Assembly (NCBI RefSeq): GCF_011605345.1
Contig: NZ_JAAOXM010000001.1
Coordinates: 744,001 to 808,000 of the forward strand
DNA: 64,000 bases
Reading direction: 5' to 3'
Origin: Burkholderia sp. D-99
GTDB taxonomy: Bacteria > Pseudomonadota > Gammaproteobacteria > Burkholderiales > Burkholderiaceae
Part shown: piece after piece, positions 5,485-16,739 of the stretch
Numbering within the stretch: the first letter of the stretch is position 1
How the letters are laid out: every line of letters begins with the position of its first letter
Position numbers and translations under genes: made by a program
The notes under the pieces: generated by a model
What the model saw: only the letters and a program-made list of their open reading frames with translations
Databases searched by the model: none
Told to the model about the DNA's origin: nothing

Positions 5485-6867
5485 TTACGATTTCGTCGGC
5501 ACCGATGCCGCCGGACGGTTCGCGTAGAACAGCGCATACGCGATGCCGAGCAGCACGATCCATACCGGCCCGATCACGAGCGCGACGCGCGTGTCGGGCG
5601 TGAACGCCATCAGCACGACGACCAGCACCAGAAAACCGAGTGCGACGAACGAACCGAGCGGATAGAACGGCACGCGGATCGGCAGGCGCGCGATCTTGTC
5701 GGCCGACAGCGTGCGGCGAAAGCGCATCTGTGCAATCAGGATCACGCACCACGTCCAGATCGCGCCGAACGTCGACACCGACGTGAGCCACGTGAACACG
5801 TGCTGCGGCGCGAGATAGTTGAGCAGCACGCCGATCAGCAGCAGCGCGACCGACAGGATCACGCCGTACACCGGCACGCCGTTGCGGTTGACCTTGCCGA
5901 GCTTGCTCGGCGCCTGGCCCTGCTGCGCGAGGTTGTAGAGCATCCGCGCGGTGCTGAACAGGCCGCTGTTGCACGACGACAGCGCCGCGGTGAGCACGAC
6001 GAAGTTGATGATGCCGGCGGCAGCCGGGATGCCGAGCCGCGAGAACGTCATGACGAACGGGCTGCCCTGCGTGCCGATCTGGTCCCACGGGTAGAGCGAC
6101 ATGATCACGAACAGCGCGCCGATGTAGAAAATCAGCACGCGCCAGAACACCGAGTTCACGGCCTTCGTCAGCGACTTCTCCGGGTTGCGCGCCTCGCCGG
6201 CCGTGAGGCCGAGCATCTCGACGCCGAGATACGCGAACATCACGATCGGCAGCGCGGCGATCACGCCGTTGATGCCGTTCGGCATGAAACCGCCGTGCGC
6301 CCACAGGTTCGAGAGGCCGATCGCGACACCGCCGTTGCCGATGCCGAACGCGATCATCAGCCCGCCGCCGATGATCATCAGCACGATCGTGACGATCTTG
6401 ATCAACGCGAACCAGAACTCGAATTCACCGTACAGCTTGACCGCGATGAAGTTCACCGAGCCCATTGCCATGAGCGCGGCGAGCGCCCAGATCCAGTTCG
6501 GCACGCCGGGGAACCACATGTGCATGTAGACGCCGACCGCCGTGATTTCAGCCATGCAGGTGACGATCCACACGAACCAGTAAGTCCAGCCGGTCAGGTA
6601 GCCTGCCAGGGGCCCGAGGTAGTCGCGTGCGTAGCGGCTGAACGCGCCGGCGACCGGATTGGCGATCGCCATTTCGCCCAGTGCGCGCATGATCAGGAAA
6701 ATGGCGATGCCGCCCAGCAGGTAGGTCAGCAGGATGGCCGGGCCGGCGACGCGGATCGCGGTGGCCGAGCCGAGGAACAGGCCGACGCCGATCGTCGCAC
6801 CGAGCGCCATCAGGTTGATGTGCCGCTCTTCCAGCCCGCGGTGCAACTGGTCTTCTGGTTGTTTCAA
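5485..6867 (-). CDS. Amino-acid permease of the APC superfamily (ProY/AAT-like)
   Basis: 460 residues with about 12 hydrophobic segments. The N-terminal signature LMALGATIGVGLFLGSATAI and the following IMRALGEMAIANPVAGAFS are those of the amino-acid transporter (AAT) branch of APC permeases. The sequence closely follows the pattern of enterobacterial ProY (LGPLAGYLTGWTYWF, GIGNGG, LTAGEARNPEKSL, IMSLYPWDQIGTQGSPFVMTF). It should import proline, histidine or a similar amino acid with protons across the inner membrane. The start MKQPEDQLHRGLEERHI aligns with the family start. It stands alone, with a 441-bp untranslated region upstream. Confidence 0.88.
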   Translation of the reverse strand: MKQPEDQLHRGLEERHINLMALGATIGVGLFLGSATAIRVAGPAILLTYLLGGIAIFLIMRALGEMAIANPVAGAFSRYARDYLGPLAGYLTGWTYWFVWIVTCMAEITAVGVYMHMWFPGVPNWIWALAALMAMGSVNFIAVKLYGEFEFWFALIKIVTIVLMIIGGGLMIAFGIGNGGVAIGLSNLWAHGGFMPNGINGVIAALPIVMFAYLGVEMLGLTAGEARNPEKSLTKAVNSVFWRVLIFYIGALFVIMSLYPWDQIGTQGSPFVMTFSRLGIPAAAGIINFVVLTAALSSCNSGLFSTARMLYNLAQQGQAPSKLGKVNRNGVPVYGVILSVALLLIGVLLNYLAPQHVFTWLTSVSTFGAIWTWCVILIAQMRFRRTLSADKIARLPIRVPFYPLGSFVALGFLVLVVVLMAFTPDTRVALVIGPVWIVLLGIAYALFYANRPAASVPTKS

Positions 6868-7308
6868 GTCCGTCTCCTGGCAGCCGCGAACGGGCCGCCG
6901 TCATTGTCGATATCAATGCGCGGCCGTTCATGCCGATCCCGGCATGCCGAAAACGAAATAATCTCCGCCGTCGTTTTCCGATTTGGAAACGACATGGATA
7001 CTGCGTCAATCCGATGGGAATCGCCGCGGATTAACCGTATTTTCCGGAACAATCCGGAATACGGATCGGGCCTTTCACGGAATACGCCCGTGTGGCCCGT
7101 GTGACGCGGCTGAGCGCGTGACGGACGACAACGGGATCAATCGCTTTCGGCGCGAACGAACGCGCGTCGAATGTGCGCGATCTTGCGCACGCAATATGCA
7201 GGCGGGATTATATGGAGGATCAGCGGTTTCACGCCAGTCGATTTTCGTGGAAATCGCGGTGGATGAAACTGGCGGCGGAATTCGAATGCGTGCGGATCTC
7301 GCACGGAT
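6868..7308. other. Gene-free region between permease start and the island's left edge
   Basis: 441 bp. No convincing coding frame is seen. It must contain the permease promoter. The part from about 7160 is AT-richer than the permease flank. The left boundary of the duplicated gene end is the stop codon at 7309. Confidence 0.5.
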
Positions 7309-7505
7309 TTATCTGGACAGCATCGCGCGCACCGTATATTCGCCTTCAATCGCACCATGTTCCGGCCGCACAAAATCCCGCGACGCATCGAGACCCGCCG
7401 GCAGCGGCTCGACCGGGAAGCCGTGCTTCTCCCATGCGTCGAGATCGCCCTTCAGGGCCCGGATGTTATGAATCATCTTCTTGCACTGCATCTTCGCGAC
7501 GATGC
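7309..7505 (-). repeat. Direct repeat, left copy (pairs with 15693-15889)
   Basis: The same-orientation copy lies at 15693-15889. Matching runs include GACCGGGAAGCCGTGCTTCT on the plus strand. Similarity stops at the stop codon on one side and just before the fragment's ATG on the other. Confidence 0.85.
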
Positions 7506-7512
7506 TGCTCAT
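7309..7512 (-). pseudogene. 3'-end fragment of a DedA-rhodanese gene
   Basis: The 67 codons from ATG 7512 to TAA 7309 match the last 67 residues of the intact fusion protein encoded at 15693-16739. KKMIHNIRALKG, DAWEKHGFPVEPLPA and EGEYTVRA are shared. The membrane domain and the catalytic cysteine loop of the rhodanese are missing, so it cannot be active as an enzyme. Its ATG overlaps the TGA of the upstream Ig-like gene (ATGA), so it could still be translated by coupling. It is most simply the displaced or duplicated end of the neighbouring gene. Confidence 0.8.
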
Positions 7513-8552
7513 GAGGAAGCAACCTTGCTGTCCGCTGGTGTTTCGAAATTCTGGTACACCTTGAGGTCGTACGTGTGCCTGATCAGCTTATCGACCCACA
7601 CCGACAAATAGCCGTCTTTGGTGGTCGTCGCCCGGAGGCCCGGCAATGGAACGGAACCGCTGCGAGTGGTCGGGTAAGGCCCGAGCGGTTGAGGGGTGAA
7701 ATTGGAACCGGCTGCCACCGCATAGACACTGATGTACGGCCATCCTGTTCCATGTGCATCGATTAACGAAACCCCGAGACAGGACGAAGGACCTGGTTCC
7801 AGATATATCCGTATCGGGTTCCCTTTCGAGCTATGAAAACGGAATTGACTTTCCTCCGGCGCGAGCGCCAGATCGAACGTCGCTTCCTTGCCATTTGCCG
7901 TGGCAACAATGGTGAAGAGGCCGGACTGCTCACCCACGACGACCTGCATCGCTGGCGTCAACCCGTTGACGTCCGTGATCACCGGCGACGGCGGCTGCAC
8001 CGTACACCCCGTTGTTCCGTTGACTTGGAAGCTGATTCGCGCATTCGAGACCGATTTCGAATTCACGTCGAGCGCCTTCACGACGAGCGGACTCGGAAAC
8101 GCCTTGCTATTCAGGAAGGCCGCTTGCTGATCGCCTTCGACCATGACGAGTTTATCGACATCGTGCGTATTGTCGGGCAACCGCGCCCCGACCTCGAGCG
8201 TAAAGACGGCTGGCGAGTTCTCGGCCTGAGCCTGGCGCGCCTCGATCTTGAAGCATCCATTTGCCGTCCCTGCCTTGACGAGCACCGACGCGAGGCCTGT
8301 CGTCGTCGTTATGACGGTCGTTGACGTCGACCAGGTTCCCGATTCCGTCGACCATACACCGGGAATACCTTGGTCTTGTGCGTTGTCGACGGCGAACACA
8401 ATCGGCTGATTGGCCACCGATGCCCCACTGCCCTCGGAATCGATGAGGACTGCGGTGAGCGGCAGTAATGCAACCTGGCTTGTCTCGACTCCCTGGCATG
8501 CTGAGTCGGACGTCGCAGAAATCGAATACGGAAGGCTATCCTTGTCGCGCAT
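7509..8552 (-). CDS. Ig-like repeat protein of unknown function (island)
   Basis: 347 residues from ATG 8552 (MRDKDSLPYSI), the first usable start after the upstream gene ends at 8629; GAGG lies 7 bases before it. The sequence reads as successive beta-sandwich domains of the bacterial Ig-like (invasin/Big) type. Units include LTAVLIDSEGSGASVANQPI...LASVLVKAGTANGCFKIEA, then VVKALDVNSKSVSNARISFQ...DVNGLTPAMQVVVGEQSGLF. No signal peptide, membrane segment or sortase/autotransporter anchor is seen. The gene is AT-richer than the flanks. Its style matches the Ig-like half of the next protein upstream, so the two may act together. Function unknown. Confidence 0.75.
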   Translation of the reverse strand: MRDKDSLPYSISATSDSACQGVETSQVALLPLTAVLIDSEGSGASVANQPIVFAVDNAQDQGIPGVWSTESGTWSTSTTVITTTTGLASVLVKAGTANGCFKIEARQAQAENSPAVFTLEVGARLPDNTHDVDKLVMVEGDQQAAFLNSKAFPSPLVVKALDVNSKSVSNARISFQVNGTTGCTVQPPSPVITDVNGLTPAMQVVVGEQSGLFTIVATANGKEATFDLALAPEESQFRFHSSKGNPIRIYLEPGPSSCLGVSLIDAHGTGWPYISVYAVAAGSNFTPQPLGPYPTTRSGSVPLPGLRATTTKDGYLSVWVDKLIRHTYDLKVYQNFETPADSKVASS

Positions 8553-8628
8553 GACATGCCTCGAATTGCAACAGGTCAGGCTGGCAGGGCACGCCGTGCC
8601 CTGTTCGCCGGTTTGATTCCGAGCATGC

Positions 8629-10761
8629 TCATGCGTCGAAGTCGGGGGTAACGTTATACATTTGCACCGCCGCACTAAGCGAAGTCTCCAACACAACGGC
8701 CTGCAAGTAGACTTTCCCAGTCGCAACAAAACACAACGCGTAGCCTCCCGCTGCGTGATAGTCCAAAATGACAGAGCCGTCGGCACCCGTATTGACGCCA
8801 GGGATGATCTGGTCCTCGGGCAAAGGATGTCCCGTGACGCTATGGACGAAATACGATGGAGGTTCGTCGGCCCCTTCAGGAGGGAGAATTGAGATCTGGA
8901 CTGCTTCGCCGGGACATGGGGCGTCTTCGGCGCCGAGCACCTTTACCCACAGGCCGTCGCCACTGAACGGCGGGTGCGGATCATATGTCGGTGCCCATTG
9001 GATATGGGTAGGAACAGGGGTGACCTGCCAATCGAATTCTGCCGGTCGGATTCCGGGCCACAGATTATTATCTGGATAAGCGTGCACGACAACGGGTCCA
9101 GCCGTGTCGAGCGCATATAGGGTGGCACTCGCTTTTCCGCTCGAATTCGTATGGACCGTCGTGCTTTTATCTCCCGGGGCATAACTAGCCTCCTTGAACG
9201 AGGCCGAGCCGCTTTGAATCTGAAAAATGACAGGAATCGGTGCCCCGTCGGCACCTGAAACGTGGGCATCGAGCGTCTTCGGAAACTGCTTGTTCACGCG
9301 GGCAAATACGTTTTCCGGATCCTCCGGCGTGATGCCGTCGACATTCGGTTTGCTGCCAATTTGCCCCCAAAAGAATGCCATAGGAAGATTCGGTTGCCCG
9401 CGCGTGTATCCTTTAATCTGAAAGCTGTCGCCTGTCTGCGCGGCCGTGGACGCATAGATCGTCGGAACGAGTGCGACGCCTGCCGGATTTCCGTTCCCCG
9501 GACCCGTGATGATCGTCGCGGTCTGCACGGAACTGCTGTCCGAGAAACTCACGTCCGTACCGGTAATCTGCACCTCGATCTGCCTGTCACTCAACAATGC
9601 AACGGTGTCTTGCCGTGTGACCTTCACGCTGATCTGATGATCAAAGGCGTGGCCTTTAGCCACATAGCCCGTCGTTGGCGAGCCACTGTAATCGACGTCC
9701 TTGCCCTCCAACGGATCGATCGAGTCCGGCGGCACGAAGTCGAAAACCCGAGCATTCGCCTGGTCCGACACCCAGAAATCATCGATCGGATGAGTGATGT
9801 TGCCACGGTATAGGATGCTGTTCGGTGCAAACGAATTTGGCCTGCCCGGATACTTTTCGCCAACGAACTCCCCTTCGTAGAACTCGCAGACCGATTGCCC
9901 CGTTAGATTCAACGGGTTCTGCTCGGACGATGTGATCGAGTTCGCGATTGCCACCCAAACGAAGCCGCTGTTGTCGACGGCAAGGCTTCTGGGATCCGAG
10001 CTCATACCAAGTAACTCAATCCGTTCCGTCGTCGCACCCGGCAGGGTAACGTCGTCAATCTTCCATAGCGCTTCATAACCGTAGGCCACGGTCGTGAACC
10101 ACAGTCGTTTGCCATCGGAAGCGAACTGCAATGCGAACGGATCCGCGCCGTCACTGTTCAAGGAGTATTTATTGATTCCTTGCCCCGATTGTCCAAGCTT
10201 TGCGAGATCGAACGAGAAGATCGCGCTTTCGGCATATCCGGTAGCCCAGATCTTGCCTCGCGCCATCGCCAGCATCGAAATCCCCGATCCGAACACCACC
10301 TGCTTTTGCGAAACCGGCGCGGGAGGCGCCAGCGTGACATCGATCGCGTACATGTTGCCGGTAGCCTCGTCGGCGACCCATATCAGTCGATTCGAGGCAT
10401 CCCATAGCAACCCACGCGGACTCGCGTGGCTACCGAGATCGATCGACGTCGCCGTCGACGCGCCCGGCTGAAAATATGCGACAGCATGGTCATCCATGCT
10501 CGTGACCCAAACCCTCTCCACAACACCGCCCTGCTGCTGCAACGCGACGTGGGACAGTCGCACGCCTTCGTCGGTGAACGCCGCATGCACCGCTGTCCTC
10601 TGCGGGTTGACCGACCCTGTTTTGCCCACCTGATAGACATACTGTGGCTGCCCGGGCCTGGAAACAGCAGCATCCGCGACCCAAACATTGCCATCGTCGG
10701 CAATGGCCATCGCCCCCGACGTCGCACCGGCGGGCAGTGAATAAGGCGTAAACTCAGACAT
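8629..10761 (-). CDS. Beta-propeller protein with C-terminal Ig-like domains (island)
   Basis: 710 residues; GAGG lies 6 bases before ATG 10761. Residues about 1-335 contain repeated blade motifs ending in W-V/A-x-D or similar (NVWVADAAV, RVWVTSMDD, RLIWVADEATG, KIWATGYAES, RLWFTTVAYG, FVWVAIANS, DFWVSDQAN). This is the pattern of NHL/SMP-30/virginiamycin-B-lyase propellers. The known Vgb catalytic residues cannot be confirmed, so a lyase activity is not claimed. Residues about 340-700 form three Ig-like units (QIEVQITGTDVSF, TLDAHVSGADGAPIPVIFQI, VKVLGAEDAPCPGEAVQI). There is no signal peptide. A surface-binding or scaffold role is inferred. Confidence 0.8.
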   Translation of the reverse strand: MSEFTPYSLPAGATSGAMAIADDGNVWVADAAVSRPGQPQYVYQVGKTGSVNPQRTAVHAAFTDEGVRLSHVALQQQGGVVERVWVTSMDDHAVAYFQPGASTATSIDLGSHASPRGLLWDASNRLIWVADEATGNMYAIDVTLAPPAPVSQKQVVFGSGISMLAMARGKIWATGYAESAIFSFDLAKLGQSGQGINKYSLNSDGADPFALQFASDGKRLWFTTVAYGYEALWKIDDVTLPGATTERIELLGMSSDPRSLAVDNSGFVWVAIANSITSSEQNPLNLTGQSVCEFYEGEFVGEKYPGRPNSFAPNSILYRGNITHPIDDFWVSDQANARVFDFVPPDSIDPLEGKDVDYSGSPTTGYVAKGHAFDHQISVKVTRQDTVALLSDRQIEVQITGTDVSFSDSSSVQTATIITGPGNGNPAGVALVPTIYASTAAQTGDSFQIKGYTRGQPNLPMAFFWGQIGSKPNVDGITPEDPENVFARVNKQFPKTLDAHVSGADGAPIPVIFQIQSGSASFKEASYAPGDKSTTVHTNSSGKASATLYALDTAGPVVVHAYPDNNLWPGIRPAEFDWQVTPVPTHIQWAPTYDPHPPFSGDGLWVKVLGAEDAPCPGEAVQISILPPEGADEPPSYFVHSVTGHPLPEDQIIPGVNTGADGSVILDYHAAGGYALCFVATGKVYLQAVVLETSLSAAVQMYNVTPDFDA

Positions 10762-10967
10762 ACGGAACCTCGATCAGTAAGGTAATAACGAATACCTGAA
10801 AGCCTGCGGCGTCAGGCAACGGTTTAACAACAACAGGCTGCCGGTCTTGCTTTTCACGCGGCCTGACTTTACGAAGACAGGCCTTGCCACTCTCCAGGCA
10901 CGCCGACGTCGACGCCGCTCGGCTTCCCGATATGCACTCCATTTGCAATACCCGCGATCGCATGCGC

Positions 10968-11457
10968 CTACATACAGCCGCCCGGACAAATATCGAATCC
11001 ACCTGTGTCGGTGGCGTAACGGGTTCCATTTAGGTTGCTATCGAATACGATGACATTAACGATCGTTGACTTGCCCGCGATCATCTCGCTGACCGCTTCA
11101 CGTAGAAGTTCACGTAAGCCCCTTATCTCTAGCGAGCATGTCGTACCGAGTTTCAAGCCGGGGTGCGCGTGGGCGAATTTGCCACGCCGCGGGCATCGGC
11201 ATCTCGCCTACGAGCACGAAGTCGCGCCAACTGCGCATGACGCTCGGCAAGCTGTCCGAACGGTTGAACATGAACGCTGACGTTCACGGAAACCTGCTTG
11301 CCGAGTTCAAGCGACATACTGCCGTTAATGCCGCCGCTCCGATCGTTTCACCGCTTTGCGTGACGAGCTTGCCTTCATTTTTGGCGTCATCCTCTTTGCT
11401 CACACCGGCAATTGACTCATTGGTCAATAACGACCTTGCTGTCGTGATATCGATCAT
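10968..11457 (-). pseudogene. Decayed small gene in three frames (island)
   Basis: From ATG 11457 one frame gives 57 residues (MIDITTARSLLTNESIAGVS...KLVTQSGETIG) ending at 11284. An overlapping second frame continues with GGINGSMSLELGKQVSVNVS. A third frame from 11156 reads MKLGTTCSLEIRGLRELLRE...IVNVIVFDSNLNGTRYATD and stops at 10968. All are on the minus strand, in order and in the island's codon style. This is what a gene with two or more frameshifts would look like. I do not recognise the family. Sequencing error or chance are alternatives. The rest of 10762-11528 holds no convincing frame. Confidence 0.35.
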
Positions 11458-11528
11458 GGCGACAGCAACAAGGGGACAATCTCGCGCAGCTCAGTTCGCT
11501 CATCCCCCATGCCGACCGGACAATGCGG

Positions 11529-13562
11529 CTATTTCGGACCGATCTTCAACGTCAGAGACGGGCTCTCGTCATACTGATCCATACTTGCGATGATCTTGAA
11601 CGTTCCCGGGGTCCCGCCTAGCCGGATCGCTGGAACCTGCGCGTATCCGTCGATAATGTCCGAGTCGCTACTGAGCTTAGGTGGATTCCCGGAGCAAAAA
11701 GTCGTCCCCGTGCTGCCGGTGTCGTCGATCGTCAAATTCAGTCGACCGGAAATCATCGGCACGTTGTTATCGAAATTGACCCACACGTAGACACCAATCT
11801 TTCCTTCTTTAAGGATCGTTCCCGCAGCATTCGTCAAATCGGGCGGTGCGTTGTCGAAGGCAATGGAACCGGGGTATTGCGGGTCAATCACCTCGACCGT
11901 GATGGTCGACGATGCAGTATTGCTTGCGTCGGAGATAACGACATCGAAGCTTCCGGATGCATCGGTCACGCTCAACGGCGGCACGGTGACGCCCCCGGTC
12001 TCCGGATTCGAGACGCTTGTTGTCTGGTGCGTCCCCGAGACAAGAAACGATGCGTCGACAGAATCCGGTTTTGTGTTGATAGTGAAATTGATGTGTTGCG
12101 CGGTAGCAGGATTGCCAGCCGAGTCGAGTGCCGTGACCGACCAGTGGCCGATCACGTCCGTGTTGCGGATTGCCTTGACGCTCTTCTCTAGCGGATCGAA
12201 ATGGTCAACGCCCTTGATGCCCACCTGCACAGACGCCTTACACTTCGGATAACCGTCCAGATACGCGACGATTTGATACGTCCCCGCCGTTGCGCCGGCC
12301 CTTAGCGGAGGTGTGGTGAGCGTCCCGCGCGTCTCGTCGTCATCGCTGGTCGTACCCTGCCATTCAATGACATGTTGGTCGTCAACCTCGAAGTACAGAT
12401 CGTTCTGGTTATCGACCAGCTCGTCGTTCTGACGAATTTCGACATGAATCAGCTTGTTCGAAACACCCTGGATACCATTGCCGTCATTTTGGATCTGGTC
12501 TTCGAAAATGATGGAATTTTCATACCGTGACAACGGGGCCATCGAAATTACGTTCGGCGGAGGCGGACTATTCACAACAAGCGTTTCACCATCGGGCGGG
12601 AAGTCCGCGTGCACGGCGCCGATCAACGTCGCAGCGACATCATCTGCGACGAGCACGTCCAGCGTCACGTTACCCGGCGTTTGCCCGGCAACCAACTCGC
12701 CGCCGGGAATAGTGGCGACGCCATTGTCATTGGCTGTCGCGGGGTAACGCGTTGCCCCACCCTTGAACAGCGTACCTGTGCCACCATCATCCTTGATCTG
12801 AAAGACGACCTGTGATTTTGGCAGGATTGTACCCGGGGCGCCTAGATTCTCGTTGCCCTCCAGTATCAGAACATCGATCTCCGGAAACGGATCGTTCGGC
12901 GCGGCGGTGATGTCGCTGAGTGAGGAAGGCGCCTTCAGCGTCGCATAAGCGGCGTACGTGTAGTTCATCTGCGGGTATGCGATGACACTACTGCAATCCT
13001 GGTGTACCGAGTCGACTTGACCTGATCCAGGCCCAAAACTCAGGTCGTAAGAACCGGGTTCCGAGAACTGCGAGTTAAATGTCCGCGGAGCCCAAGCAAC
13101 TCCATTACAGAAGTCTACGTACTTTTGCGATTGGTTCGGGCCGAAAGTCACGGAGAACTGATTTGTACCTGTTAAACAGTTATAAGTTTTATTTTTATAC
13201 GGGTTCCGAATACTGTAGAACGTAAGCGTGACCTCCCCTCCTCGCTCGAGCGAGATGCTCTGCTTGAGTACACCATTTCCGTTACCAGCATCATTATCGC
13301 CAGCAAGAACAACGACATTGTAAGAACCTGCGGGTATTTCGTTGCGATACGGTTGCATCAACGGGTCCAGGACGTTCTCGATTCGCAGGCCGCCTGCGAA
13401 ACGCTCCCAGTTATCCGGTGGCACATAGCCCTTCTGTTCGTTAGTGTCGTTTAGCACATAGTTGTCGTTTTTCTTATCATTGAGAAACTGATTCATATCC
13501 GAGTTGCTCACGGAGAACAGAGTGTTCACCACCAGCTGCTTCGATCCGATAGGAGCCGTCAT
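11529..13562 (-). CDS. Large Ig-like repeat protein (island)
   Basis: 677 residues; AAGGA lies about 9 bases before ATG 13562. Residues 1-220 form a unique N-terminal domain with four or more cysteines (YNCLTGTNQF, FCNGVAWAP, HQDCSSV). Residues about 225-675 are four to five Ig-like beta-sandwich units with recurring phrases such as VVFQIKDDGGTGTLF, IHVEIRQNDELVDN, WSVTALDSAGNPATAQ and LTIDDTGSTGTTFC. These resemble the Ig-like regions of the other two island proteins. There is no signal peptide and no membrane anchor. The gene follows the halovibrin-like gene by 61 bp and is probably co-transcribed with it. Function unknown; binding to a surface or carrying an effector is inferred. Confidence 0.8.
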   Translation of the reverse strand: MTAPIGSKQLVVNTLFSVSNSDMNQFLNDKKNDNYVLNDTNEQKGYVPPDNWERFAGGLRIENVLDPLMQPYRNEIPAGSYNVVVLAGDNDAGNGNGVLKQSISLERGGEVTLTFYSIRNPYKNKTYNCLTGTNQFSVTFGPNQSQKYVDFCNGVAWAPRTFNSQFSEPGSYDLSFGPGSGQVDSVHQDCSSVIAYPQMNYTYAAYATLKAPSSLSDITAAPNDPFPEIDVLILEGNENLGAPGTILPKSQVVFQIKDDGGTGTLFKGGATRYPATANDNGVATIPGGELVAGQTPGNVTLDVLVADDVAATLIGAVHADFPPDGETLVVNSPPPPNVISMAPLSRYENSIIFEDQIQNDGNGIQGVSNKLIHVEIRQNDELVDNQNDLYFEVDDQHVIEWQGTTSDDDETRGTLTTPPLRAGATAGTYQIVAYLDGYPKCKASVQVGIKGVDHFDPLEKSVKAIRNTDVIGHWSVTALDSAGNPATAQHINFTINTKPDSVDASFLVSGTHQTTSVSNPETGGVTVPPLSVTDASGSFDVVISDASNTASSTITVEVIDPQYPGSIAFDNAPPDLTNAAGTILKEGKIGVYVWVNFDNNVPMISGRLNLTIDDTGSTGTTFCSGNPPKLSSDSDIIDGYAQVPAIRLGGTPGTFKIIASMDQYDESPSLTLKIGPK

Positions 13563-13623
13563 GACATAGATCCTTTTAATGTAATCCTTGCTATTGCATG
13601 CTCATTTTGAGTAGGCAACCCTC

Positions 13624-14622
13624 TCACTGACTGCACGTTGTCGCCTGGTCCTGATCGCTATATGAAAAAATATTCATATGGATGGCCGTGAAATCGAGTT
13701 TTACGATTGGCACAAACCTTCCCGTAGTCTTGCAAAAATCCTTCTGGACTGCCTTCGCGTTCTCCAACGCCGATTGGAGGGTAGTGTTATGATCATCTCC
13801 ATTTTGCGTAGTGTAGAAGAACGCCTCGATTGGCAATTGGTCGGGAATTCCGTCCGGCCAGGTTTCGATCAAAAGCTCGGTCCACAAACTTTTTCCATCA
13901 GCTTTATATTGATACGCGGCCTGTAGTGCCTGATAGAACGCCACCGGGTCTTCAGTGCTAAACGAGCAGTTATAACTCAAAGCATCATTATTTTTCTTCA
14001 TCGAGATCCACTCGCCTGAGGTCTTGATGCCGAGTGGCTCACATGAACTCACATCGCCGGTGTATGGTGGCTTAGAGTCTCCAGGCGGCTTTTTCATGCA
14101 TCCATAACTCAAATATGTACCATCGTCGGTCGCTGCATCATTTGGATAGATGCAGCGATACGACAGATCAGGATACGTTCCGACGTCGAAATTGGCATTA
14201 TTCTTGAAAATGAATCCGTGATCATGATAAACCTTGAGCGTCCCCGTATCTCCCCGAACATAGGAAAACGAGACGGATCCCATTAATAGTGCCGTCGGAC
14301 TTGGATCCCATTCGTGGTAATTGCCGTTTGCCGCAGCAGTGGCCCGAATAGTGATTCCGGAACAGTAGTAGGCTGGCTTTCCGTCCGGACACTGATTGAC
14401 CATGTACTGATATCTGGAATTCAGACCATTGGCGATATCCTGTCCACTCTGAAGTGCAGCATTTTGGCCGGCATCCTTTGCGACCGCCGCGGATATCCCG
14501 ACCAGCGCGAAAACAGTCCAAATTGCCAACCGCAGCGTATTTCCGGGACGAGACTCGTGCAACGTCAGCCCGCACACGACCGAAAGGGCTTTACGGATGT
14601 AAATCAGTGAGGAAAAGTTCAT
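13624..14622 (-). CDS. Secreted halovibrin-like protein (island)
   Basis: 332 residues from ATG 14622 (MNFSSLIYIRKAL). A signal peptide ends near residue 50 (IWTVFALVGISAAVA/KDAG). The mature part carries the pattern NSRYQYMVNQCPDGKPAYYC, SGITIRAT, YHEWDPSPT and VSFSYVRGDTG. A series of cysteines follows (YRCIYPND, YGCMKKPP, SSCEPLG, YNCSFSTED), then LWTELLIETWPDGIP and LPIEAFFYT. I recognise this layout from HvnA/HvnC halovibrins of Vibrio and Pseudomonas; HvnA-type proteins have been described as secreted NAD-active enzymes. Activity here is not shown. Disulfides are likely in the periplasm or outside the cell. It is the first gene of the island's minus-strand run. Confidence 0.6.
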   Translation of the reverse strand: MNFSSLIYIRKALSVVCGLTLHESRPGNTLRLAIWTVFALVGISAAVAKDAGQNAALQSGQDIANGLNSRYQYMVNQCPDGKPAYYCSGITIRATAAANGNYHEWDPSPTALLMGSVSFSYVRGDTGTLKVYHDHGFIFKNNANFDVGTYPDLSYRCIYPNDAATDDGTYLSYGCMKKPPGDSKPPYTGDVSSCEPLGIKTSGEWISMKKNNDALSYNCSFSTEDPVAFYQALQAAYQYKADGKSLWTELLIETWPDGIPDQLPIEAFFYTTQNGDDHNTTLQSALENAKAVQKDFCKTTGRFVPIVKLDFTAIHMNIFSYSDQDQATTCSQ

Positions 14623-15692
14623 ACAAGGTCCGCCCGGTGATGAGCGCGACAAAAAAATATCGCACGCATCAAAAATACGATCCCTCACACGAACAGTCCA
14701 TTACACTCGATTACGCGAAATAAATACATCCCGCGCTGCCATGGGCAGGAGCAGAGCAAATTTCGCAATAAACTCCCGTATAGTTCAATAATCGTGAATT
14801 TCCCACGCAACATGCGGGGCGCGATCGGGAAGCTGTTCTCACGTGTCGGCCGCCCTGTTTTTCCAATTGCTCGCCACACTCAGGGCGCCTTGCCGATGGA
14901 TCACCAGGAAATCGTCTTCGAATCATTTGGACGTCCGTCACGGCCATGTCCGATGACATTGCAAAGGCATGATCCATTCCCCCGCCTGGTCCGCGCACGG
15001 CAATGGCTTCTTGAGGTGATGTCTCGTAAGAAATTGCGGTTTCTATTGAACAAATTCCTGTTTTTTTGAGGGGAATTCAATGCATGGCCATAATGGAAGC
15101 AATAGAGGCCCACAAGAAGCTTGCTGGTTATAAGTGATTCAATCTGTGGTTAGGGAGAGAATCCTTTCTGGCGCGACCTGCCTCATCAAAAGAATGAATT
15201 CAATCGTCGAATGGCGATAATTACTCGTGATCCGTGGTTATTGACTTCTTTTTCTTAAATTTCTGATTTTGTGCGTGGCAGTGAGGTTTGCGCACATATT
15301 TTCTTCGATCGAGTTAATCTTGAGGTTTCCATGTCAGGTGGTCGAGGTGACAAGACCGTGCCGCGCGCTGTGCCCTGAACACTGAAATCGAAACTCGAAA
15401 ACTGTCAGAAAACAATAACCCCGGCCCACTTTCGCGAGACGGGGTTATATAATCGTTAAGATCAAAGGATGAATTTATATTAAATCGACATATCGCAATC
15501 TACCCTGCCGAGAATCTCCGTTGTCGACCACGACGTCTGTCAAACGGGATCAGCTGTGCTTCAGAGGCTCCGAGTGCCTGTCGAGCACATCCGATGACGC
15601 TCAGGCCATCCGGGCGACTTTGAAGGCGTCTATCCCGTTCGAAACCATCGCTGGAGTTCGGCGGTACTGACTGCTTCGTGGCTCGCCGCCGT
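14623..15692. other. AT-rich gene-free kilobase at the right end of the island
   Basis: No frame here has convincing protein character; frames of 60-100 codons on both strands overlap each other and lack ribosome sites. The AT-richest DNA of the window is around 15180-15340. The stretch must hold the promoter for the halovibrin-like gene. It includes the inverted repeat at 15415-15448 and ends at the stop codon of the intact DedA-rhodanese gene. Confidence 0.5.
15415..15448. repeat. 9-bp perfect inverted repeat in the island end
   Basis: ATAACCCCG (15415-15423) and CGGGGTTAT (15440-15448) are separated by 16 bases. It could be a protein-binding palindrome, a recombination site or a weak transcription end for the DedA-rhodanese gene. 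The sequence alone does not decide. Confidence 0.4.
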
Positions 15693-15889
15693 TTACTTCG
15701 ACAACGTCGCGCGCACCGTATATTCACCTTCGAGCGCACCGTGTTCCGGCCGCACGAAATAACGCGACGCGTCGAGATCCGCCGGCAGCGGCTCGACCGG
15801 GAAGCCGTGCTTCTCCCACGCATCGAGGCCGCCCTTCAGCGCCCGGATGTTGTGGATCATCTTCTTGCGCTGCATCTTCGCGATCAGGC
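15693..15889 (-). repeat. Direct repeat, right copy (pairs with 7309-7505)
   Basis: This is the 3' end of the intact DedA-rhodanese gene; see the left copy for the match. Confidence 0.85.
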
Positions 15890-16739
15890 GCTTCGCGGTC
15901 GCTTCGTTCGGGCACACGCAATAAACGACGATCGGCCGTTTCAGCAATTCAGGGTCGAGCAGGTCCGGTGAATCGAGATCGACCGGCACAGCGCCGGCGA
16001 TCCGGTACGGTTCGCGCTCGCGAATCGCTTTCGGCCGCGCGTCGAAGATCAGCGGCGGCTCGTCCGACGTCATCATCTCGACGAGTTGCGGCGGCGAGAT
16101 GCGCACCTGCGCGAGATAGCGGCGGAACTGCACGCGACGCACCCAGCGGTACAGCAGGAACGTGATGAAGATGGCGAGGAACGCGTCGAGGATGGTGCCG
16201 CCGCTCGCGCGCACCCACAGCACGAACTGGACGATCTGGTCGTGAATGGCCGCGCCGCCGACCAGCCAGAACGCCGCCCACAGCGACGCGCCGGCCAGAT
16301 CCCAGAACAGGAACACGCCGACACCGATCGCGGTCGTGCCGAGCAGCGGCGCCGACACGAGGCCGAGGCCCGGCAGGAACTTGGACAGCACGAGCAGCGG
16401 CGCGCCGTATCTTTCGAATACGTTACGCGCGAAACGCAACGTGGTGTCGAGCGACAGCGAGAAGCGCACGAGGCCGTTCAGCAGGCGCCGGCCGCGCGTG
16501 CGGCCCATGAAGAACCACAGCGAATCCGCCAGCATCGTCGCGCCGATCGCCGCCGCGAACATGCTGACCCAGGACGCCTGCCCCATTGCCGCCATCGTGC
16601 CGCCGAGAATCAGCATCGGCACGGCCGGCACCGGCACGCCGAGCTGCGTGATCAACACGCTCGCGAACACGGCCCACGGGCCGAGCGACGATGGAATAGC
16701 GATGGGAAAGTGCCACACGGCGGCGCTCCTGGAAGACAT
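15693..16739 (-). CDS. DedA-family membrane protein fused to a rhodanese domain
   Basis: 348 residues. Residues about 20-215 form a DedA/SNARE-associated membrane domain (VPVPAVPMLILGG, LADSLWFFMGRTRGRR, LVLSKFLPGLGLVSAPLLG), a family linked to lipid carrier flipping and envelope stability. Residues about 225-320 form a rhodanese domain on the cytoplasmic side, with the loop VVYCVCPNEATAKRL supplying the candidate active cysteine. A 30-residue tail follows (FVRPEHGALEGEYTVRA). Fusion of these two domains is known in proteobacteria. The last ~200 bp of the gene are duplicated at 7309-7505. It probably once lay directly beside the permease gene at 5485-6867, before the island arrived. Confidence 0.9.
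   Translation of the reverse strand: MSSRSAAVWHFPIAIPSSLGPWAVFASVLITQLGVPVPAVPMLILGGTMAAMGQASWVSMFAAAIGATMLADSLWFFMGRTRGRRLLNGLVRFSLSLDTTLRFARNVFERYGAPLLVLSKFLPGLGLVSAPLLGTTAIGVGVFLFWDLAGASLWAAFWLVGGAAIHDQIVQFVLWVRASGGTILDAFLAIFITFLLYRWVRRVQFRRYLAQVRISPPQLVEMMTSDEPPLIFDARPKAIREREPYRIAGAVPVDLDSPDLLDPELLKRPIVVYCVCPNEATAKRLIAKMQRKKMIHNIRALKGGLDAWEKHGFPVEPLPADLDASRYFVRPEHGALEGEYTVRATLSK

Follow-up and report, generated by a model that had tools for sequence, protein, structure and literature searches.

In the 64,000-nucleotide stretch of Burkholderia sp. D-99 analyzed here (contig NZ_JAAOXM010000001.1, positions 744,001–808,000; hereafter the window), an intact gene coding for a 348-residue DedA (VTT) and rhodanese protein (PF09335 and PF00581; 15693–16739, minus strand) lies apart from its core neighbor on the far side, an amino-acid permease gene (PF00324, E = 3.7e-127; 5485–6867, minus strand). 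The DNA in between comprises the native DedA–permease spacer (6868–7308), a copy of the 3′ end of the DedA–rhodanese gene (left copy; 7309–7505, minus strand) and an island (7506–15692), which extends up to the working copy of the same gene end within the intact gene (right copy; 15693–15889, minus strand).

The two copies align without gaps at an offset of 8,384, with 172 of 197 identical bases. By blastn, the best 184 bp of this match have an E-value of ~3e-64, and the runner-up among the matches between the flanks compared reaches only 3e-5. A second search recovered the repeat as well, and the 197-bp stretch is present at two places only in the genome (E ≤ 0.001). The DedA-to-permease interval has a G+C content of 54.9%, compared to ~63–72% per kb in the surroundings, and a search of the window for tRNA and tmRNA genes found none. 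An earlier interpretation by a model that had only the letters and their reading frames (the sequence-only reading) proposed an island at the 3′ end of the DedA–rhodanese gene, with the gene end duplicated at a fixed offset without indels and AT-richer DNA between the copies; all of this holds. The repeat is real and marks an insertion. Note that positions 7490–7507, at the left joint, and 16530–16547, inside the DedA gene, form an inverted match of 18 nt (89% complementary), possibly by chance.

If an island was inserted at this place, then relatives with an empty site are to be expected. We surveyed 65 Burkholderia genomes, that of D-99 included, with the DedA protein as a query, which found a match in all of them; the site was read in 54 sequences, made up of the window plus 53 of the remaining 64 genomes (the rest being G014, G015, G017, G021, G025, G028, G036, G039, G043, G050 and G054). 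As predicted, 25 of the 54 sequences have an empty site, with the permease gene 434–456 bp behind the DedA–rhodanese gene, while 15 have a gap of more than 1 kb, three show small differences and 11 have the permease gene out of reach. The gap is 8,829 bp in the window and, among named records, 7,169 bp in each of two B. arboris strains, 2,233 bp in B. multivorans and 449 bp, i.e. an empty site, in B. cenocepacia. The island is missing from the empty sites, to which the left copy and the spacer align as a single block (90.8% over 688 columns for G011, from −187 to +500 around the DedA stop codon, the reference for all such positions below). Since the left copy and the spacer are continuous with empty-site sequence, the island lies between the working gene and the former gene end. 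A check for the opposite picture (no empty site anywhere, or a left copy belonging to a larger duplication) left the insertion standing.

Which of the two copies is native can be judged from their identity to the gene ends of the closest relatives, which is 85–88.5% for the left copy and 90–96% for the right copy. The left copy carries nine bases absent from all 41 functional ends compared (rows with indels or diverged ends excluded, three extra named records included), and six of these nine bases change the protein; the functional ends have five private bases at most. Furthermore, the left copy ends in AGATAA, a single change away from AAATAA, with which most empty sites end, and the working copy ends in AAGTAA. 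The last codon is AAG in 11 of the 15 sequences with a gap above 1 kb versus two of the 25 empty ones (p = 3.5e-5, uncorrected for relatedness), in six of the 11 sequences with the permease gene out of reach and in one of the three with small differences; in a hand-chosen table, AAG was present in 13 of 14 occupied rows (the two B. arboris strains included) versus two of 26 empty rows. The empty-type ending is retained in the two long displaced ends, as AAATAA in G055 (see below) and as AGATAA in the window. In our reading, the left copy is the native end, probably now displaced and in decay, and the right end was brought in, or altered, together with island-side DNA. Much of the divergence between the copies looks like the decay of a non-functional fragment. 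The sequence-only reading had deduced separate histories of the two ends from their divergence of about one base in eight; the copies do differ (25 of 197 positions), but this does not simply reflect separate histories, because it is the left copy that stands out, with its lower identity and nine private bases.

Displaced DedA ends of three lengths were found: 190 bp in the window (where homology to empty sites starts at −190), 231 bp in G055 and 23 bp in G027. The second DedA end of G055 adjoins the native spacer and differs from the working end at 11 positions, two of which are private to the displaced end and nine of which are informative. The sister genome G056 agrees with the working copy at positions −210, −204 and −201, and with the displaced copy at positions −195, −183, −150, −6, −3 and −1; the nine informative sites are thus split by a single breakpoint between −201 and −195. 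Such a split is predicted by one reciprocal crossover near −200 between the chromosome and incoming DNA, to which the data lend moderate support, as the first three sites are clustered. At the other occupied sites, homology to empty sites resumes at about 0 to +180, and no constant short core repeat was found at both island ends among the displaced ends and occupied sites compared. In both the window and G027 (L048, ~5.5 kb behind the DedA gene), the displaced end finishes with CCAGATAA; its base at −4, which all 41 functional ends compared lack, is shared either through common ancestry or by chance.

The sequence-only reading also expected other inserts at the same gene end in related species, and these exist. 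They include (i) orphan VgrG sets (VgrG/effector/immunity), with a VRR-NUC protein and a TsiV-type immunity protein in G008 (G010 contains close relatives of these), and with a Tli4 immunity protein and a protein showing a weak, sub-threshold alpha/beta-hydrolase match in G005 and G019; (ii) Tli4 together with TPR/glycosyltransferase genes in G027; (iii) FhaB/CdiA-like systems, namely a 3,025-residue protein with a ShlB-type transporter in G040, close relatives of both in G051, an FhaB/CdiA-like gene and a transporter match in two pieces in G002, and an FhaB/CdiA-like gene in G013; (iv) a catabolic cluster in G055 (regulator, porin, aldehyde dehydrogenase, amidohydrolase and GMC oxidoreductase), accompanied by VgrG fragments; and (v) in G042 (L056), a 257-bp scar behind the DedA stop codon, composed of two pieces that also occur in such islands. 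One piece resembles a UbiA-region stretch of the G040 and G051 islands, and the other matches G005 and G051 at their far end. G005, G051 and G042 share, at that end, the last part of a small gene judged PAAR-like by eye. The same core pair encloses intervals that are empty in 25 sequences and exceed 1 kb in 15, with varied cargo. The DedA–rhodanese/permease interval is a gene-exchange hotspot in Burkholderia.

The flanking genes themselves may take part in the exchange. In the comparison of G010 with the window and G008, identity is 94–99% in the permease windows and 92–100% in DedA, as against 60–69% in the first two spacer windows and ~76–87% beyond the permease gene; other distant species, e.g. 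G012, display ~90–96% in the DedA and permease genes. The G010 pattern suggests, for this one genome, exchange through the DedA and permease genes.

Altogether, we lean, if not strongly, toward a scheme in which cassettes are exchanged by homologous recombination within the flanking core genes. In the window, a single crossover within the DedA end would have brought in the island, rebuilt the gene and pushed its old end aside. The incoming DNA would consist of a DedA 3′ end plus cargo, most simply as a circularized fragment, and a single recombination event with the chromosomal DedA end would give the working gene the incoming end and place the cargo behind it. The original end would remain beside the native spacer, severed from its gene, and would decay; no site-specific recombinase would be necessary. 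The integration of circularized linear DNA by a single crossover is described in PMC3240628, and the direct repeat this predicts around the insert matches the window, although that work is a laboratory demonstration and the event considered here is deduced from old sequences.

Several points weigh against this scheme. The excess of protein-changing bases in the left copy is, taken alone, not significant (p = 0.14, and 0.32 against the majority); G010 has a VgrG island and yet keeps AAA as its last codon; the reciprocal mosaic is known from a single genome, G055, with three of its nine sites clustered; and the left copy of the window is so decayed that a crossover there cannot be placed. Besides, no donor molecule for the island was found, and serine recombinases and transposases were covered only via family scans of selected cargo.

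In an alternative to the single crossover, a linear fragment would have been attached by homology on one side and by an illegitimate joint on the other; it would either have delivered the island or have returned empty-site DNA to an occupied site. Homology-facilitated illegitimate recombination is also described in PMC3240628, and the displaced ends start at unrelated places (−231, −190 and −23), as such joints would have it. On the other hand, the left part of the displaced end of G055 is unlike the sister genome G056 at three sites, so that a wholly native or conspecific fragment would call for an extra polymorphism, and we consider this alternative unlikely.

Site-specific integration at the 3′ end of the gene, with the recombinase either lost afterwards or supplied in trans (as for an integrase-less, CIME-like element), appears rather improbable to us. 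Protein genes with island integration at the 3′ end and restoration of the gene end are known, guaA and prfC among them. The gene end is both restored and displaced here, several islands begin right at the stop codon, and a motif behind the stop is common to G010, G013 and G055 and weaker in G033; the restoration by incoming DNA, with an AAG-type working end and an AAA-type displaced end, is fitted equally well by a homologous crossover. Against site-specific integration, the displaced ends differ in length and the crossover predicted in G055 falls outside the 190-bp repeat of the window. Nor was a tyrosine recombinase seen near the site in the searches made. No recombinase gene was detected in the window island by open reading frames and family scans, in agreement with the claim of the sequence-only reading that the island holds no integrase. 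The 17 tyrosine-recombinase loci of the D-99 genome gave nothing by tblastn against 54 DedA stretches, nor did profile and single-sequence searches from these loci against 59 stretches, run without a positive control. In the D-99 genome, the nearest tyrosine recombinase is ~250 kb from the site, and among the PF00589 matches listed for 12 occupied or related genomes, the nearest is ~130 kb away (in G040). The analogy with att-site integration drawn by the sequence-only reading is not sustained by the three displaced-end lengths, the G055 crossover position and these distances.

The motif behind the stop consists of tandem units of ~12 bp located ~20–50 bp behind the DedA stop codon, in L033 (G055), L058 (G010) and L075 (G013). 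These units suggested integrase arm-type sites, a label that we reject: with up to three mismatches, the motif occurs in three of 20 genomes, each time solely beside the DedA gene, and hence represents a local sequence type rather than an element found elsewhere. As for the origin of the cargo, a phage was rejected, as the DedA end matches no phage record and relatives of the last 98 residues of the gene product are missing from the viral contigs searched; this likewise speaks against site-specific integration at the gene end. A plasmid origin was also rejected, the 14 plasmid records with a match to the DedA end being from Paraburkholderia (eight), Burkholderia (four), Cupriavidus (one) and Sphingomonas (one); we take the Sphingomonas match, 38 bp inside an integrase gene, as chance.

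Finally, an assembly artefact or a chance resemblance is very improbable: the D-99 assembly is a draft of 31 contigs, but the two copies differ at 25 of 197 positions inside a 1.6-Mb contig and G055, assembled in three contigs, has the same architecture.

The island of the window carries four genes, all on the minus strand, within positions 7509–14688. Gene 1 (13624–14688, 354 residues) has relatives at 30–38% identity in seven other genomes of the 65 in the genus; it may be halovibrin-like. Gene 2 (11529–13562, 677 residues) is an orphan, with a relative in no other of the 65 genus or 398 family genomes. Gene 3 (8629–10761, 710 residues) has a β-propeller-like part, with NHL above and Vgb_lyase below the cut-off, and weak fragments only in two other of the 398 family genomes. 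Gene 4 (7509–8552, 347 residues from the likely start; the longest open reading frame reaches 8786), whose stop codon abuts the left joint, has only sub-threshold Pfam matches. Genes 1, 2 and 4 gave no Pfam or NCBIfam match above the cut-off and no PHROGs or PADLOC match, and genes 1, 2 and 3 gave no match in the PDB. No relative of genes 2 and 3 was found in the plasmid records searched, and none of gene 3 in the viral contigs.

Integrase-poor hotspots are already known, and the DedA–rhodanese site is probably a further case. According to the passages available of Oliveira et al. 2017 (PMC5635113), 45% of hotspots encode an integrase, 27% lack any of the mobility proteins searched for, and recombination is raised in the core genes flanking hotspots. 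The site described here resembles these hotspots in its variable accessory genes between two core genes, with no mobility gene seen in the searches made and, in one genome, suggestive signs of exchange in the flanks; it differs in that the insertion is marked by a displaced end of the flanking gene, a kind of scar those passages do not mention. In SGI1 at trmE and in the dusA islands (PMC8409611), the gene end is likewise rebuilt on one side and the old end displaced on the other, whereas here no recombinase and no constant core repeat are seen and the displaced ends vary from 23 to 231 bp. The FhaB/CdiA-like cargo of G040, G051, G002 and G013 appears similar to the Burkholderia bcpAIOB contact-dependent growth inhibition (CDI) islands, as far as these are covered by the passages of PMC3415462, and the cargo of the window is unrelated to them. 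Term searches of PMC3415462 and PMC10449530 gave no hit for DedA or rhodanese, and no description of a DedA-site hotspot was found in the literature searched, most subscription journals being outside its scope.

In conclusion, Burkholderia appears to have an exchange site at which cargo of different kinds is interchanged, type VI secretion system VgrG sets and FhaB/CdiA-like systems among it; several of these gene sets are weapons against rival bacteria. As a single locus, it is of moderate interest. Tentatively, plain homologous recombination could mimic att-site integration, with cassettes that bear part of a core gene's end entering through one crossover, rebuilding the gene and leaving a displaced end to decay. 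Such scars could then help to date and follow the turnover of cargo, in many cases antibacterial weapons, at hotspots free of recombinases, an extension we hold possible though doubtful. The displaced gene ends are visible scars that can reveal how insertion took place even where no recombinase is present; if confirmed by population data, they would provide a direct test of how genes are gained at recombinase-free hotspots.

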